Below, piece after piece: positions 57,764 to 64,000 of a DNA stretch of 64,000 bases (position 1 is the stretch's first letter; every line of letters begins with the position of its first letter). This DNA is from Ruania suaedae (GTDB taxonomy: Bacteria; Actinomycetota; Actinomycetes; Actinomycetales; Beutenbergiaceae), in assembly GCF_021049265.1 (NCBI RefSeq), contig NZ_CP088018.1:1488001-1552000 (forward strand), written 5' to 3'. Below the pieces are notes generated by a model. The model was given only the letters and a program-made list of their open reading frames with translations. It ran no database searches and was not told where the DNA came from. A program made the translations under genes and the position numbers.

Positions 57764-57793
57764 TTGACACCGGCCCCCGGGGGGACGTCTACT
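57764..57793 (+). promoter_or_regulatory. imuA-imuB promoter (-35 TTGACA, -10 TCTACT)
   Basis: TTGACA (57764-57769) is a perfect -35 element. TCTACT (57788-57793) follows after 18 nt and is a plausible -10. The LexA box at 57796 begins 3 nt downstream and covers the expected start site. Confidence 0.6.
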
Positions 57794-57795
57794 GA

Positions 57796-57811
57796 TCGAA
57801 CCGATGTTCGA
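57796..57811. promoter_or_regulatory. LexA (SOS) box upstream of imuA
   Basis: TCGAAC-CGAT-GTTCGA matches the actinobacterial LexA consensus TCGAACnnnnGTTCGA at all 12 defined positions. It sits between the core promoter and the imuA gene. Confidence 0.92.
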
Positions 57812-57857
57812 TGTCGGTGGTGGCTCCTACCGTGCAGCACAGAGAGGAGGGACGCCG

Positions 57858-58727
57858 ATGAGTCTCACCGCAGAACGGGTCACGGAGCCCGTGTCACGCG
57901 AACTACCACCCGAGCTGGCTGCTCGCCTGGATGCCGCACGGCAGGTGCTCGCCACCGCCGAGGCGGAGGTGGGGGTGCGTGCCCGGTTGGAGCCGCCGGA
58001 CGTCGTCTCCCTGCCCCCTGCGCAGGAGGGCACGGGAGAGGAGCCCGACGAGGGTCGCCGTGTGGATCCCGAGCAGGCGCTCGCGGTCCCCGGCGGGCTC
58101 GCCCCGCTCTTCCCGGACGGGATGCGCCGCGGGGGTGCGGTCCAGGTGCTCGGCAGCACCTCGGTGCTGCTCTCCCTGGCGGCCGGGGCGATGTCCGGAG
58201 GTGCCTGGTGCGCCATGGTGGGGCTGCCGGACCTCGGGCTCGCCGCCGCGGCCGAGCTGGGACTACCGCTGGAGCGCACGGTCGTGGTGCCACGGCCGGG
58301 TCCGGATCTGGCGGGCGTGCTCGGCGCCCTGGTGGACGGGGTGGACGTGGTGGTGCTCGGGTCGGCGGGCTCGTTGCTCGACCGGGAGCGTCGCACGATC
58401 GGTTCCCGGATCCGGGTGCGCGGGGCGGTCATGCTCACCGCCGGCCCCTGGCCGGGTGCGGACACCGTGCTCGAGGTGACCCCACGCGCCTGGCACGGAG
58501 TGGGGCAGGGCAGCGGTGTGCTGCGTTCGGGAGAGGTGACCATCACGGCGAGGCATCGTCGCGGCGACCTCACCCGGGCCCTCCACGCCCGCCGCGGCCT
58601 GCAGGGCTGGGGACCGGTCCCGGCGGTGCCGGCGGTATCACCGCTGCGATCGCTCGACCGGCCCGCCGGGGCCGCGGCCGGCACCGCTGATGCCCGTGCC
58701 GATGCCCGACTGGTGCGGGCCGGGTGA
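57858..58727 (+). CDS. imuA: ImuA'-like mutasome protein
   Basis: A 289-residue RecA-like protein without a working ATP site: the Walker A position reads LGSTSVLLSLAAG, lacking the GK(S/T) lysine. The core spans about residues 80-240, with ALVDGVDVVVLGSAG resembling the strand before Walker B. The C terminus is Ala/Arg rich. In mycobacteria ImuA' and ImuB form the mutasome with DnaE2 for translesion synthesis. ATG 57858 with GAGAGGAGGGA upstream is chosen; ATG 57804 lies inside the LexA box. GTGA overlap links it to imuB. Confidence 0.88.
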   Translation: MSLTAERVTEPVSRELPPELAARLDAARQVLATAEAEVGVRARLEPPDVVSLPPAQEGTGEEPDEGRRVDPEQALAVPGGLAPLFPDGMRRGGAVQVLGSTSVLLSLAAGAMSGGAWCAMVGLPDLGLAAAAELGLPLERTVVVPRPGPDLAGVLGALVDGVDVVVLGSAGSLLDRERRTIGSRIRVRGAVMLTAGPWPGADTVLEVTPRAWHGVGQGSGVLRSGEVTITARHRRGDLTRALHARRGLQGWGPVPAVPAVSPLRSLDRPAGAAAGTADARADARLVRAG

Positions 58728-60358
58728 GTGCGGTGAGTGCGGCAGTGCCCGAGCCGGCAGCTGCGCAGGAACAGGCGACCCGTCTCGCGGTCCTGTGGGT
58801 ACCCGACTGGCCGGTGGTCGCCGCCGCAGCCGAGGGGCTGGTCCAGTCGCACCAGCCCGTCGCCGTGTACGACGCCCGCGGTGTGGTGGCCGCATCGGCC
58901 CGGGCCAGGGCGAGCGGGGTGCGCCGGGGGCAGCGCCGCAGGTCGGCGCAGGCGGTCTGCCCCGAGCTGGTCCTGGTGCCGATGGACGAGGGGCGGGACG
59001 TGCGCGCCTTCGAAGCGGTCGCCCAGGCGGTCGAGGGGGAGGTGCCGCACGTGCAGGTGCTACGCCCGGGAGTGGTGGTCCTGGCGGCGCAGGGCCCGCG
59101 CCGCTACCTCGGGTCCGAGGAGGCGGTGGCCGAGGTGCTGATCGGCGCCGCGGTGGGAGCCGGGGTGGAGGCGCAGGTCGGGATGGCGGACGGGCTGTTG
59201 GCAGCCCTGCTTGCCGCACGCGAGTCCGTCCTGGTCCCGCCGGGCGCCTCGGCCGGCTTCCTCGCGCGGAGGGACGTGCGCGACCTCGTGCACGTGACCA
59301 CCACCCGGCAGTCCCGGGGGGAGATGGGCGAGCTCACCGGAGTGCTGCGCCGGCTGGGCATCGACACCCTGGGCGGCCTCGCACAGATGCGCTCGGGGCA
59401 GGTGGCTGCCCGGTTCGGCACGCTGGGGGCGCAGGCGCGGCGACTTGCGGCCGGCCTGGACGGGCAGGCGCCCTCCGGGCGGCGGGGTGAGCCGGACCTG
59501 ACCAGTGCTGCCGAGCTCGACCCGCCGGCGCAGCGGCTGGACACCGCCGCGTTCGCAGCCAGGCGGCTGGCCGAGGACCTGCACGCGCGGATGATGCGGC
59601 GCGGGGTGCTGTGCGGGCGGTTGCGGGTGCAGGCGCGTACCGAGGACGGCGGCGAGCTGGAACGCACCTGGCGCATCGATGGCGTCCTGGCCGCCACCGA
59701 GCTGACCGACCGGGTGCGCTGGCAGCTGGACGGATGGCTCAGCGGCCGCAGCGGCCGCCCACCGAGCTCGGCCCTGACCCGGCTGACCCTCACCGCCGAG
59801 GAGGTCTCCCCGGCGAGCACGGTCTCCGAGGGGCTGTGGGGACGGGTCGGGCGCGGGGAGCGGCAGGCGGGCCGGGCGGCGTTGCGGGTGCAGGGGATGC
59901 TCGGGGCCGACGGGGTGCTCGTCCCGGTGCCCGAGGGCGGGCGTTCCCCGCGTGACCGGGTCCGGCTGGTGGCCTGGGGTGACGACGTCGCGCCCGTGCG
60001 CGATCCCGACCAGCCGTGGCCGGGGCAGATCCCCCGCCCACTGCCCGCGACCGTGCCCGCCGAGCCGGTGCCGATCCGGCTCGTGGACGAGGCGGGGGGC
60101 CTGGTGCGGGTCGGGGTGCGAGGGGAGCTCTCGGGCCACCCGGTTCGAGCGCAGGTCGAAGCAGGGCAGAAGGAGGCAGGCCGGGCCGGGCAGCCTCGTC
60201 GGCTACGTATCACCGGATGGGCAGGGCCCTGGCCGGTCCATGAGCGGTGGTGGGCCGGCGGGCAGGCGCGGCACTACCTGCAGGTCACCGGGGACGGTGC
60301 TGCCCTGCTGCTCGCCGGCGACGGGCAGCGCTGGTGGCTGGAGGGGGTCTACGACTAG
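58724..60358 (+). CDS. imuB: ImuB, catalytically inactive Y-family polymerase homologue
   Basis: A 544-residue Y-family polymerase-like adaptor. The N-terminal segment reads AVLWVPDWPVVAAA where active polymerases have an Asp-rich metal site, so the catalytic acids are missing, as is typical of ImuB. The little-finger region (about 185-330) has LGIDTLGGLAQM and ARFGTLGAQARRLAAGLDG. A long C-terminal part (about 400-544) is specific to ImuB, which links DnaE2 to the sliding clamp. The GTG start overlaps the imuA stop; both lie behind the SOS box. Confidence 0.92.
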   Translation: MSAVSAAVPEPAAAQEQATRLAVLWVPDWPVVAAAAEGLVQSHQPVAVYDARGVVAASARARASGVRRGQRRRSAQAVCPELVLVPMDEGRDVRAFEAVAQAVEGEVPHVQVLRPGVVVLAAQGPRRYLGSEEAVAEVLIGAAVGAGVEAQVGMADGLLAALLAARESVLVPPGASAGFLARRDVRDLVHVTTTRQSRGEMGELTGVLRRLGIDTLGGLAQMRSGQVAARFGTLGAQARRLAAGLDGQAPSGRRGEPDLTSAAELDPPAQRLDTAAFAARRLAEDLHARMMRRGVLCGRLRVQARTEDGGELERTWRIDGVLAATELTDRVRWQLDGWLSGRSGRPPSSALTRLTLTAEEVSPASTVSEGLWGRVGRGERQAGRAALRVQGMLGADGVLVPVPEGGRSPRDRVRLVAWGDDVAPVRDPDQPWPGQIPRPLPATVPAEPVPIRLVDEAGGLVRVGVRGELSGHPVRAQVEAGQKEAGRAGQPRRLRITGWAGPWPVHERWWAGGQARHYLQVTGDGAALLLAGDGQRWWLEGVYD

Positions 60359-60398
60359 CGGGGGACACGAGCTGCTGCCGGCGTCCTACCGGTTCGCC

Positions 60399-61070
60399 TC
60401 AGGCTCTCGCTGCCGTCCCCGCCCGCAGGGCAGCCTGCACCTCGGCCACGCCGATCTCCGCCAGCGAGGACAACAACTGGGCTGGGACCCCGGGATCAGG
60501 GGTGTGGCTGGTGAGGAACCACACCTCCAGGCCGGCACCATGAGCGCTGATCGCTCCGGCGGCGGAGTCCTCGAAGGCGAGGCTGCGGGCAGGGTCGATC
60601 CCCAGGCGGGTCGCGGCGCTCAGGTAGGGCTCGGGATCGGGTTTGGGTGAGGTGACGTCGTCGGCGCTGACCGCCAGGCGCAAGGCGCCGCGGGGGGCGG
60701 CCGCGAGCAGCAGCTCGGCATTGACGCCGGCGTTGTTGGTGACCAGGGCACAGGGGACCCCGGCGTCGGCAAGGCCGGCGAGCAGCTCCCGCGCGCCCGG
60801 CAACCACGGCATGTCGGCGCGCATCCGCTCGCTGACGTGGGCCACCGCCCGGGCGATGATCTCCTCGATGCTCCCGGCCACGCCGCGCTCGCTGAGGATC
60901 GTGGCCCAGCGTTCCATCGGCCGGCCGATCGAGGCCTCGAAGTCCTCCTGTGACCAGGTGGTGCCGGCGCTCGCGGCCAGCGCCTCCTGGGCGGACTGCC
61001 AGTGGGGTTCGGTGTCGACGAGCGTGCCGTCCATGTCGAACAGGACGCCGGCGGGGAGGGGAGAGGTCAC
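60399..61070 (-). CDS. HAD family hydrolase, beta-phosphoglucomutase-like
   Basis: A 223-residue HAD phosphatase of subclass IA. Motif I is VLFDMDGTLVDTE (about 9-21), motif II LVTNNAGVN, the lysine is in SPKPDPEPYL, and motif IV is FEDSAAGAISAHGAG. The GTG start at 61070 is supported by TACCGT 6 nt upstream. It lies convergent to imuB and divergent from dnaE2, so it separates the mutasome genes. The substrate (a sugar or nucleotide phosphate) is unknown. Confidence 0.9.
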   Translation of the reverse strand: MTSPLPAGVLFDMDGTLVDTEPHWQSAQEALAASAGTTWSQEDFEASIGRPMERWATILSERGVAGSIEEIIARAVAHVSERMRADMPWLPGARELLAGLADAGVPCALVTNNAGVNAELLLAAAPRGALRLAVSADDVTSPKPDPEPYLSAATRLGIDPARSLAFEDSAAGAISAHGAGLEVWFLTSHTPDPGVPAQLLSSLAEIGVAEVQAALRAGTAARA

Positions 61071-61076
61071 CCGCTC

Positions 61077-61082
61077 ACGGTA
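61077..61082 (-). promoter_or_regulatory. -10 element of the HAD gene (leaderless type)
   Basis: Minus-strand TACCGT is followed by GAGCGG and GTG 61070. Confidence 0.55.
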
Positions 61083-61120
61083 CCCGTGGGGTGGCCGTGC
61101 CCCGGTCCGACAGAGGCGAC

Positions 61121-61126
61121 TACAAT
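61121..61126 (+). promoter_or_regulatory. -10 element of dnaE2 (leaderless type)
   Basis: TACAAT is the most consensus-like -10 hexamer noticed in the window. It ends 7 nt before ATG 61134. No clear -35 was found. Confidence 0.7.
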
Positions 61127-61141
61127 AGAACGCATGTTCGC
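61126..61141. promoter_or_regulatory. LexA (SOS) box over the dnaE2 start codon
   Basis: TaGAAC-GCAT-GTTCGc matches 10 of 12 defined positions of TCGAACnnnnGTTCGA. The spacer contains the first bases of ATG 61134, so LexA would sit on the transcription and translation start. Confidence 0.8.
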
Positions 61142-64000
61142 ACGACCGCCGGGTGGGCCTCCTGCCTACGCCGAGCTGCACGCGCACTCCGCGTTCAGCT
61201 TCCTCGACGGTGCCAGTCAGCCGGAGGAGCTGGTGGCCGAGGCGGCCCGGCTCGGGCTCAGTGCGCTCGCGATCACCGATCACAACGGCCTGTACGGGGT
61301 GGTCCGCTTCTCCGAGGCGGCCCGCGCCGCGAACCTGCCGGCCCTCTACGGCGCCGAGCTGAGCCTGGACGCCCCCGTGCGCCCCACCGGAATGCCCGAC
61401 CCGGACGGCACCCACCTGCTCGTCCTCGCTCGTGGCACCGAGGGCTACCGTCGGCTCTCCCGCGCCATCGCCACCGCGCACCTGGCCAGCGGCGCGAAGG
61501 GGGAGGCCCGGTACGTGCTCCCCGAGCTCGCCGACCTCGCCGGCGGCAACTGGCTGATCCTCACCGGGTGCCGCAAGGGCGCCGTGCGCCGCGCCCTGGA
61601 ACCCGAACCCGGCCGGTTCGACCTCGACGCCGCCCGCCGCGAGCTCGACGTCCTCACCGACTACTTCAGCGGCGAGAACGTGGCGGTCGAGGTCACCGAC
61701 ACCGGTACCCCGCTGGACTCCGTGCGTGGGGATGCTCTCGCCGAGTTGGCTGACCGCAGCGGCCTGCCGCTGGTGGCCACCGGTGGGGTGCACTGCGCCA
61801 CCCCGGCCGATCAGCGCCTGGCCCACGTGCTCGCCGCCGTCCGGGCCCGGTCGAGTCTGGACGAGATCGACGGCTACCTACCGGCCGCCGGGCCCCACCT
61901 GCGCAGCGCCACGGAGATGCTCGCCCGCCACCACCGTCATCCTCACGCCGTGGCCACCGCCGCCGCGCTGGCGGCCGAGTGCACCTTCGACCTGCGGCTG
62001 GTGGCCCCGAACCTGCCCCCGTGCCCCGTGCCCGAGGGACACACCGAGGCCTCCTGGTTGCGTGAGCTCACCCACCGCGGCGCGCGGGAGCGTTACGGCC
62101 CGCCCGAGGCGCCCCGTCACCCGCAGGCCTATCCCCAGCTCACGCACGAGCTGGACGTCATCACCGCACTGGACTTCCCCGGCTATTTCCTGATCGTGCA
62201 CGAGATCGTCGACTTCTGCCGGCGCGAAGGGATCCTGTGCCAGGGGCGCGGCTCAGCCGCGAACTCCGCCGTCTGCTTCGCCCTCGGGATCACCGCCGTC
62301 GATGCGGTGGTGCACGAGCTGCTGTTCGAGCGGTTCCTCTCCCCGGGCCGCACCGGCCCCCCGGACATCGACCTGGACATCGAGTCCGGCCGGCGCGAGG
62401 AGGTCATCCAGCACGTCTACGCCACCTACGGGCGCACCCACGCCGCGCAGGTGGCGAACGTCATCTCCTACCGGCCCCGCTCCGCCGTGCGGGACGCCGC
62501 CCGCGCCTTCGGGTACGAGACCGGTCAGCAGGACGCCTGGTCGAAGTCCATCGAACGCTGGGGGTCCCTGCGCGGCAGTGATCCGCGCACCCAGGCCACC
62601 AACGACCTGGACGGCATCCCCGACCAGGTGCTCGACACCGCCGAGCAGATGCTGCGCCTGCCCCGCCACCTGGGCATCCACTCCGGTGGCATGGTGCTGT
62701 GCGACCGGCCGGTCATCGACGTCTGCCCGGTGGAGTGGGCCACCATGCCCGGGCGCACCGTGCTGCAGTGGGACAAGGACGACTGCGCCGACGCCGGGCT
62801 GGTGAAGTTCGACCTGCTCGGCCTCGGGATGCTCACCGCGCTGCGGCTGGCGTTCACCACGATCACCGAGATCGAGGGGATCGAGCTCGGCCTGCACAGT
62901 CTTCCGCAGGAGGACCCGGCGGTGTATGAGCTGCTGTGCGCCGCCGACACCGTCGGGATCTTCCAGGTGGAGTCCCGGGCCCAGATGGCGACCCTGCCTC
63001 GACTGCGCCCGCGCACCTTCTACGACATCGTCGTCGAGGTCGCCCTCATCCGGCCCGGCCCGATCCAGGGTGACGCCGTCCACCCCTACATCGAGCGACG
63101 TAACGGCCGCGAAGAGGTCACTTACCTGCATCCCCTGCTCGAGCCGGCGTTGCGCAAGACGCTCGGGGTGCCGCTCTTCCAGGAACAGCTCATGCAGATC
63201 GCCATCGACGTCGCCTCCTTCACCCCGGACGAGGCCGACCAGCTGCGCCGGGCGATGGGCTCCAAACGCTCCATGGAGCGGATGGAGGCGCTGCACCAGC
63301 GGCTCCTGGACGGGATGGCCGCCAACGGGGTCAGCCGCCCGGTCGCCGAGCAGATCTACGACAAGCTCAAGGCCTTCGCCGACTTCGGCTTCCCCGAGTC
63401 CCATGCGTTCTCCTTCGCCTACCTGGTCTATGCCAGCGCCTGGCTGAAGGTCCATCACCCCGAGGCCTTCTACGCCGGTCTGCTCGCCGCCCAGCCGATG
63501 GGCTTCTACTCCCCGCAGTCGCTCGTGGCCGACGCCCGCCGCCGCGGGGTGCAGGTGGAGCGGGCGAGCGTCGTGCGCTCGCAGGTGCAGGCCGGTGTGG
63601 AACGGGTGAGTGAAGTTCACGACGGTGAAGCCCTCGCCACGCCCCTCGCTGTGCGCCTCGGCCTGGCCCCGGTGCGAGGAGTGGGGGAGGAGACCGCGGA
63701 GCGGATCGTCGCCGCCCGCGCCGGCCGGCCCTTCGACGACGTCGCCGACCTGGCCCGCCGGGTGCGGTTGAGCACCGCTCAGCTCGAGGCGCTCGCCACG
63801 GCGGGGGCGCTGGTGGACCTGGGCCACGAGCGCCGTCAGGGGCTGTGGGTGGCGGGGGCGCTGGCCGGGGAGAGCGGTCGTTCCCACGGCCGGTGGGTGC
63901 AGGAACCGCTACCGCTGACCGCCGTCGGGCTCGACGTGCCCGAGCTGCCCGCCATGGACGAGGTGACCACCGCGGTGGCGGACGTGTGGGCCACCGGGGT
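61134..64000 (+). CDS. dnaE2: Error-prone DNA polymerase DnaE2 (ImuC), 3' end outside window
   Basis: The first 955 codons of a C-family polymerase used in SOS translesion synthesis. The PHP domain opens with YAELHAHSAFSFLDGAS and ITDHNGLYG. The polymerase active site has GRGSAANSAVCFALGIT, then PDIDLDIESGRREE with the catalytic acids, and KFDLLGLGMLTAL. ALIRPGPIQGDAVHPYI and FPESHAFSFAYLVYASAW mark the DnaE2 branch. ATG 61134 is set by TACAAT 7 nt upstream and overlaps a LexA box. imuA-imuB lie just upstream, completing the mutasome. Confidence 0.95.
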   Translation, partial: MFARPPGGPPAYAELHAHSAFSFLDGASQPEELVAEAARLGLSALAITDHNGLYGVVRFSEAARAANLPALYGAELSLDAPVRPTGMPDPDGTHLLVLARGTEGYRRLSRAIATAHLASGAKGEARYVLPELADLAGGNWLILTGCRKGAVRRALEPEPGRFDLDAARRELDVLTDYFSGENVAVEVTDTGTPLDSVRGDALAELADRSGLPLVATGGVHCATPADQRLAHVLAAVRARSSLDEIDGYLPAAGPHLRSATEMLARHHRHPHAVATAAALAAECTFDLRLVAPNLPPCPVPEGHTEASWLRELTHRGARERYGPPEAPRHPQAYPQLTHELDVITALDFPGYFLIVHEIVDFCRREGILCQGRGSAANSAVCFALGITAVDAVVHELLFERFLSPGRTGPPDIDLDIESGRREEVIQHVYATYGRTHAAQVANVISYRPRSAVRDAARAFGYETGQQDAWSKSIERWGSLRGSDPRTQATNDLDGIPDQVLDTAEQMLRLPRHLGIHSGGMVLCDRPVIDVCPVEWATMPGRTVLQWDKDDCADAGLVKFDLLGLGMLTALRLAFTTITEIEGIELGLHSLPQEDPAVYELLCAADTVGIFQVESRAQMATLPRLRPRTFYDIVVEVALIRPGPIQGDAVHPYIERRNGREEVTYLHPLLEPALRKTLGVPLFQEQLMQIAIDVASFTPDEADQLRRAMGSKRSMERMEALHQRLLDGMAANGVSRPVAEQIYDKLKAFADFGFPESHAFSFAYLVYASAWLKVHHPEAFYAGLLAAQPMGFYSPQSLVADARRRGVQVERASVVRSQVQAGVERVSEVHDGEALATPLAVRLGLAPVRGVGEETAERIVAARAGRPFDDVADLARRVRLSTAQLEALATAGALVDLGHERRQGLWVAGALAGESGRSHGRWVQEPLPLTAVGLDVPELPAMDEVTTAVADVWATG

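Follow-up and report, generated by a model that had tools for sequence, protein, structure and literature searches.

The mutasome of mycobacteria comprises ImuA', ImuB and DnaE2, with imuA'-imuB lying apart from dnaE2, and both LexA control of the two units and a dual control by LexA and PafBC have been reported for it (PMC10421592). Such cassettes and their regulation by LexA have long been known (PMC3901139, citing Erill 2006 for a pressure towards LexA control). In Cellulomonas, Demequina, Sanguibacter and their relatives, the same genes form one contiguous operon. Among other SOS genes, the leaderless lexA of Mycobacterium tuberculosis has a translation start shown to be identical with its transcription start (PMC2897130), and genes of the 13E12 or DUF222-HNH type are LexA targets in the same organism (PMC4181829). 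Here we describe the imuA'-imuB and dnaE2 genes of Ruania suaedae, which lie in a stretch of 64,000 nucleotides (hereafter the window; bases 1488001-1552000 of the single 3.56 Mb contig). They probably represent an operon that was broken into two SOS units, with imuA'-imuB under LexA and PafBC and dnaE2 under a LexA operator placed on its own start codon.

The locus shares with mycobacteria its three proteins and the separation of imuA'-imuB from dnaE2. However, in the named loci of Mycobacteriales that have a LexA box within 300 nt of dnaE2, this box is situated 177-278 nt before the conserved core of the gene, whereas here the operator contains the start codon; a stop-checked test found no embedded dnaE2 start in any Mycobacteriales box, while a simpler frame test flagged two loci (L123, L166). 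The contiguous operons checked (20 G-labelled genomes) have a LexA box before imuA, as found here, but their dnaE2 directly follows imuB and lacks a box of its own. For the leaderless lexA of M. tuberculosis, the accessible part of the report does not state that the operator contains the start codon (PMC2897130). Many DUF222-HNH genes start inside the same element as the dnaE2 described here, but their products are endonuclease-like, unlike the polymerase DnaE2. No description of LexA operators containing a start codon was found in searches of listings of the open-licence literature, which is not proof of novelty. The observation is confirmed: the system is of a known kind, and we came across no description of its putative regulatory variant.

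The putative LexA operator at the likely dnaE2 start codon

The initial annotation had ascribed to dnaE2 a LexA-type box of its own. This box (TAGAACGCATGTTCGC) is present; it does not lie upstream of the gene, however, but contains the likely start codon. An equally good box occurred in 1/5000 shuffles of its 320 nt, and 100000 Markov-shuffled versions of the 320 nt surrounding the dnaE2 start never contained the complete arrangement of -10 hexamer, operator and ATG. The ATG follows the -10 hexamer by 7 nt; with a TANNNT hexamer at this distance, transcription is expected to begin at the ATG itself, and the predicted mRNA would be leaderless, without room for a Shine-Dalgarno (SD) sequence. 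An in-frame start further upstream was considered and rejected, the residues there differing between relatives when inspected by eye.

The overlap could be incidental if dnaE2 were an ordinary LexA-controlled gene with a start elsewhere or a leadered mRNA, since LexA boxes of this phylum often contain an ATG. Consistent with this, the M. tuberculosis LexA motif reads RYWTGTTCGA (PMC4181829), the box before imuA' also contains an ATG that is probably not a start, and in three members of the genus (G002, G005, G007) dnaE2 starts downstream of the operator, whose ATG is out of frame with the gene. Nevertheless, we consider an incidental overlap improbable. In 11 genomes, ten of the family (G000, G003, G004, G006, G009, G010, G014, G017, G020, G023) and one of another family (G057), dnaE2 is read in the frame of the operator ATG (positions 9-11), and the spacing between this ATG and a conserved Tyr is a multiple of three in 11/11 although it takes six different lengths (9, 12, 15, 18, 33 or 36 nt). 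The hexamer ending at operator position 1 is kept in fixed register as TANNNT in 10/11 (CATACT in G014). Moreover, G009 and G057 have only two codons between the operator ATG and the conserved Tyr, with no alternative start codon among them, and at 23 of 30 loci fetched from the phylum the same element opens a long reading frame at this ATG (see below).

In the three genus members with an out-of-frame ATG, the operator opens short open reading frames (ORFs) of 12, 19 and 12 codons, respectively, each of which shares an ATGA overlap with dnaE2 (3/3). A coupled leader ORF would be expected to show this overlap, which given the frame is partly automatic. At L063 of G057 (C3:217552-217577), the operator of dnaE2 is palindromic and has a -10 hexamer plus an ATG on each strand, an arrangement that might serve two leaderless starts in divergent directions; a double match resembling it was also seen in L101.

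Operon structure and the distribution of dnaE2 boxes

In a search of 59 genomes with ImuB and DnaE2 as queries, ImuB was matched in 40 (weakly in G024, 2.3e-6) and DnaE2, a query that also catches DnaE1, in all 59. We compared the regions from imuA to dnaE2 of 38 relatives (40 stretches) as well as the best 80 named loci of a longer list, 121 loci in all, of which 118 could be classed (G004a, G008 and G014a lack the dnaE2 N-terminus). imuB and dnaE2 are contiguous in 62/118, including the named loci of Cellulomonas, Demequina, Sanguibacter, Isoptericola, and Promicromonospora. Within the family, the two genes are adjacent in seven genomes (G011, G012, G013, G015, G016, G019, G022). They lie 0.8-57 kb apart in the genus of the window and in G009, G010, G014, G017, G018, G020, G021 and G023, and about 700 kb apart in G004; the region of G008 is cut by contig ends. 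All broken family members, G008 included, form one group of 16 in a quick ImuB tree (99 rows, unrooted by the data). Because of its spread among relatives, we take contiguity to be the ancestral state, and the single imuA-imuB-dnaE2 operon was most likely broken secondarily in the ancestor of the genus and its sister genera. The initial annotation had contrasted genes scattered in mycobacteria with genes gathered here, which reverses the direction: it is the genus that has the broken operon, and several Mycobacteriales likewise have their units 2.7-7 kb apart (Rhodococcus, Nocardia, Gordonia, Williamsia, and Mycolicibacterium, at loci with imuB located). The closeness of the two units is not the novelty of this locus, as many relatives keep one operon.

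The presence of a LexA box at dnaE2 follows this separation. Boxes were scored with a home-made weighting and sought within 300 nt of dnaE2, a score of at least 16 of 20 being called a box; at chance level, 5/187 coding windows of 310 nt reach 16 and 2/187 reach 18. A dnaE2 box was found in 0/62 contiguous versus 40/56 other loci (Fisher 8e-19, ignoring relatedness and including the duplicates L120 (= G005) and L141 (= G031)). Boxes of 16 points (G041, L128, L147, L188) are weak, and without them the latter count is 36/56. When only separated loci with a located imuB are considered and L120 is dropped, 32/38 have the box.

Among the exceptions, G001, G018, and G021 carry dnaE2 directly behind an ORF of 510-628 amino acids (aa) that has a LexA box itself, at its start in G001 and G018 and 35 nt before it in G021. 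Two of these three ORFs reach the Pfam cut-off for HNH, and the third has no Pfam match but the same cysteine-histidine pattern by eye. At L193 (Nocardia), dnaE2 is preceded by a small gene whose start lies in a LexA-like box; for L198 the box is at -306, and L170, with a gap of 397, lacks one. imuB was not located for a further 17 separated rows, ten of which lack a box; judged by eye from the end of the preceding ORF, six of these look contiguous (L144, L167, L178, L184, L189, L190), and the other four are L126, L129 and L131, with dnaE2 behind a small gene with a LexA-like box, and also L161. The small gene preceding dnaE2 in Nocardia (L126, L129, L131, L193) encodes a product beginning MCDT (about 156 aa where read), and its ATG lies in the LexA-like box.

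The control region of imuA'-imuB

Upstream of imuA', the hexamers TTGACA and TCTACT and the LexA box TCGAACCGATGTTCGA are present as initially annotated, except that box and promoter are separated by 2 nt instead of 3. A TTGACA-like hexamer precedes the imuA box in several relatives, too. When the 200 nt preceding imuA were Markov-shuffled, an equally good box arose in 1/5000 cases; the complete 16-mer is found twice in the genome (3.56 Mb). Its core, GAAC-N4-GTTC, is found at 37 places in the genome versus 2 for the pattern read backward; according to a rough gene call, these include sites near the starts of recA, lexA, the dinB region, imuA, dnaE2, and DUF222 genes, and the remaining ones are mostly inside genes. 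An imuA' start at ATG 57804, inside the box, was rejected: this codon is in frame, but its distance from the -10 hexamer is 11 nt, and in G001 the frame is disrupted by one additional base; the SD-led ATG is preferred. The second copy of TCGAACCGATGTTCGA (G000:C1:1408953-1408968; L001, L066) precedes a HEPN_SAV_6107 gene followed by dinB, and an exact motif of the PafBC type begins 190 nt before it.

For motifs of this type, the RecA-NDp literature gives the strict form TGTCRGTG-N8-TANNRT. The genome contains six exact sites of this form, and the one at imuA, TGTCGGTGGTGGCTCCTACCGT, is the only one in the window. It also fits the published PafBC motif TGTCGG-N10-TA-N3-T (PMC8151990). At dnaE2, no exact site of the strict form was found; looser forms were not searched for there. 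Near the imuA box the motif is exact in 15/16 genomes of the broken clade and has one mismatch in G009 (the 16 include G008, and G007 lacks imuA on its contig), and in each case 0/200 shuffles were equally good. In contrast, all seven intact family members have 3-5 mismatches; outside the family (14 genomes), there is one mismatch in G025, two in each of G032, G050 and G052, and 3-5 in the rest. pafB and pafC genes are located near tatC in the R. suaedae genome; these two WYL genes yield matches to PafC (7.8e-46) and to the PafB half of the PafBC structure (6.3e-53).

That LexA switches both units jointly, as initially proposed, is consistent with the conservation of both boxes and with intact lexA and recA genes in the genome, whose products have confirmed LexA and RecA domains. 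LexA is probably not the sole regulator, however, because imuA'-imuB has the exact PafBC motif and dnaE2 lacks it. Alternatively, imuA'-imuB might respond to LexA alone, the PafBC-like motif being an unused relic or being read only via the TTGACA promoter. The motif does sit downstream of a good sigma-70-like promoter, and the seven intact family members manage without it. We regard this alternative as rather doubtful, given that the motif is exact throughout nearly the whole clade at a level that shuffles did not reach, that the genome holds so few exact sites, that it has pafBC genes, and that the mycobacterial mutasome genes have been reported to be PafBC-responsive (PMC10421592). Dual control by LexA and PafBC would then be what is already reported for the mycobacterial mutasome, and the present locus a conserved putative instance in which only imuA'-imuB shows the motif.

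Occurrence of the element at other genes

The element composed of -10 hexamer, operator and ATG, searched as TANNNTNGAACNNATGTTC, is present in 17/24 genomes of the family, 64/248 of the order, and 69/296 of the phylum, while a backward-pattern control occurs in none, 1, and 3, respectively (control counts read from listings). At 23/30 fetched loci of the phylum the operator ATG opens an ORF of at least 150 aa, and 7/30 have short ORFs only. Domain scans of 21 of these 23 (L100 and L105 were left out) revealed 5 RuvC, 4 UvrD-like, and 12 DUF222 and/or HNH proteins, L099 among the last being a weak HNH match (0.0044). The LexA targets named for M. tuberculosis include RuvC and HNH genes of the 13E12 type (PMC4181829); in Streptomyces venezuelae, RuvC is a LexA target, and for uvrD a LexA site inside the gene but no induction is reported (PMC9380542). 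Two DUF222 genes of the R. suaedae genome itself start in the element. The start of a DUF222 gene that is oriented divergently from recA (G000:C1:1384454-1384472, minus strand, L064) lies within it, and the 2.5 Mb genome G073 (L091) has 31 element matches versus 0 for the control, the one locus read being a DUF222-HNH gene.

On balance we are evenly divided on whether operator, transcription start and start codon form a portable leaderless SOS start module of Actinomycetota (TANNNT, one base, GAACNNATGTTC). Such a module would dictate a Met-Phe- N-terminus and serve dnaE2, ruvC, uvrD-like and DUF222/HNH genes, and dnaE2 would have been plugged into it on leaving the imuAB operon: directly, via a coupled leader ORF of 12-19 codons, or downstream of an HNH-type gene bearing a LexA box. 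Alternatively, the operator and the start codon of dnaE2 could stem from a DUF222/HNH gene, formerly situated between imuB and dnaE2 and since lost by deletion. In G001, G018 and G021, dnaE2 is still immediately preceded by an HNH-type gene that has a LexA box; in G001 and G018 this gene opens at the operator ATG. The operator is on dnaE2 itself in G004 and G014, which are nearest to them in the tree, and two DUF222 genes of the own genome share the element. Still, this origin seems rather unlikely: by eye, the own DUF222 element and that of dnaE2 are similar in the operator core only, in G021 a stop follows the operator ATG at once, and a later arrival of HNH genes at the dnaE2 operator is equally conceivable.

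Genes of the locus

The features of the locus are compiled in Table 1. The initially annotated imuA'-imuB and dnaE2 cassette was confirmed by profile matches and by reading frames that are open in all three genes, and dnaE2 begins, as described, 775 nt downstream of the imuB stop. The part of DnaE2 within the window scores 1289.5 bits against the model of the error-prone polymerase (cut-off 939 bits), and the full product, which extends beyond the window, has 1076 aa. A relative of the HAD hydrolase gene between imuB and dnaE2 occupies the corresponding place between these genes in G001, G002, G003, G005, G006, G007, and G010; as this gene is antisense, a promoter of its own is expected for dnaE2.

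Table 1. Features of the imuA'-imuB and dnaE2 locus (window positions).
Feature	Position	Strand	Basis or remark
Promoter hexamers TTGACA and TCTACT of imuA'-imuB	57764-57769, 57788-57793	+	Sequence
LexA box TCGAACCGATGTTCGA before imuA'	57796..57811	+	Sequence, shuffles, conservation in relatives
Motif of PafBC / RecA-NDp type, TGTCGGTGGTGGCTCCTACCGT	57812..57833	+	Abuts imuA LexA box
imuA'	57858..58727	+	NF058630, 149.8 bits (cut-off 65); SD-led ATG preferred as start
imuB	58724..60358	+	IMS domain PF00817; GTGA overlap with imuA'
HAD hydrolase gene	60399..61070	-	Antisense, between imuB and dnaE2, divergent from dnaE2
-10 hexamer TACAAT of dnaE2	61121..61126	+	Last base is operator position 1
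LexA operator TAGAACGCATGTTCGC	61126..61141	+	Spans expected transcription start and start codon
dnaE2	61134..64000, continuing past window end	+	NF004225; likely start ATG 61134 within operator

ImuB is coupled to ImuA' through the overlap of their genes and is 34-84% identical to the imuB products of relatives. It has the Y-family fold without the catalytic acids: IDEAFLD of the DinB of the same genome aligns with PGVVVLA of ImuB, and for the first catalytic acid, in a stretch outside the computed alignment, HVDMDAFF of DinB faces LWVPDWPV by eye. The region of the clamp motif (about residues 366-373) reads SEGLWG, compared to QDGLWG or QEGLWG in several relatives and QLPLWG for the beta-clamp motif of mycobacterial ImuB (PMC10421592). 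The leading Gln, usual in many relatives, is substituted in part of the broken clade. As judged from its sequence, the locus is predicted to code for an intact ImuA'-ImuB-DnaE2 translesion mutasome, a cassette of a known kind.

Proposed regulation and its implications

From the genes, the boxes, their register and the comparative pattern, we infer binding of LexA and PafBC, a leaderless start of dnaE2, induction and mutagenesis, and the direction of the operon change. Breakage of one imuA-imuB-dnaE2 operon would have produced two SOS units. In the first, the TTGACA promoter of imuA'-imuB has the LexA operator just downstream, abutting a putative PafBC-type promoter, and expression could increase upon cleavage of LexA as well as through the PafBC pathway, which does not depend on RecA. 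In the second, a promoter driven by its -10 hexamer would have the LexA operator across transcription start and start codon and yield a leaderless dnaE2 mRNA. A LexA repressor on this site would prevent initiation at +1; once it had been cleaved through RecA, ribosomes would begin translation at the 5' ATG itself, so that the operator sequence would set the N-terminus of DnaE2 (Met-Phe-...).

Several observations weigh against this model. The dnaE2 promoter has no clear -35 hexamer, and an ATG alone proves nothing, because it is common in actinobacterial LexA boxes, for example in the M. tuberculosis motif MKWMTCGAAMRYWTGTTCGA (PMC4181829). The spacing of 0-1 nt between the box and the PafBC motif is seen in no more than 11 of 16 clade members, the gain of this motif maps to one clade, and an NCBIfam scan gave neither of the two WYL genes a name. 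Regarding the association of dnaE2 boxes with separation, there are about five independent pairs that differ in contiguity, of which 3.7-3.9 agree with the rule and 0 contradict it (p 0.125); this sign test, made on the quick ImuB tree with the duplicates L120 and L141 dropped, is too weak to settle independence, and the tree itself warns of long branches, G057 among them.

If the model holds, dnaE2 offers a testable, sequence-defined case in which a 21-bp element would set repression as well as transcription and translation start of a mutator polymerase, and SOS output would then bypass SD-dependent initiation. Nearly every separated locus examined has a LexA box at dnaE2 or at the preceding gene, which suggests compensation for the breakage of the operon. 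In the broken clade, the accessory unit imuA'-imuB bears a second, RecA-independent motif, and the polymerase gene does not. The element may also explain the Met-Phe starts of many LexA-controlled actinobacterial proteins and help to place their start codons.

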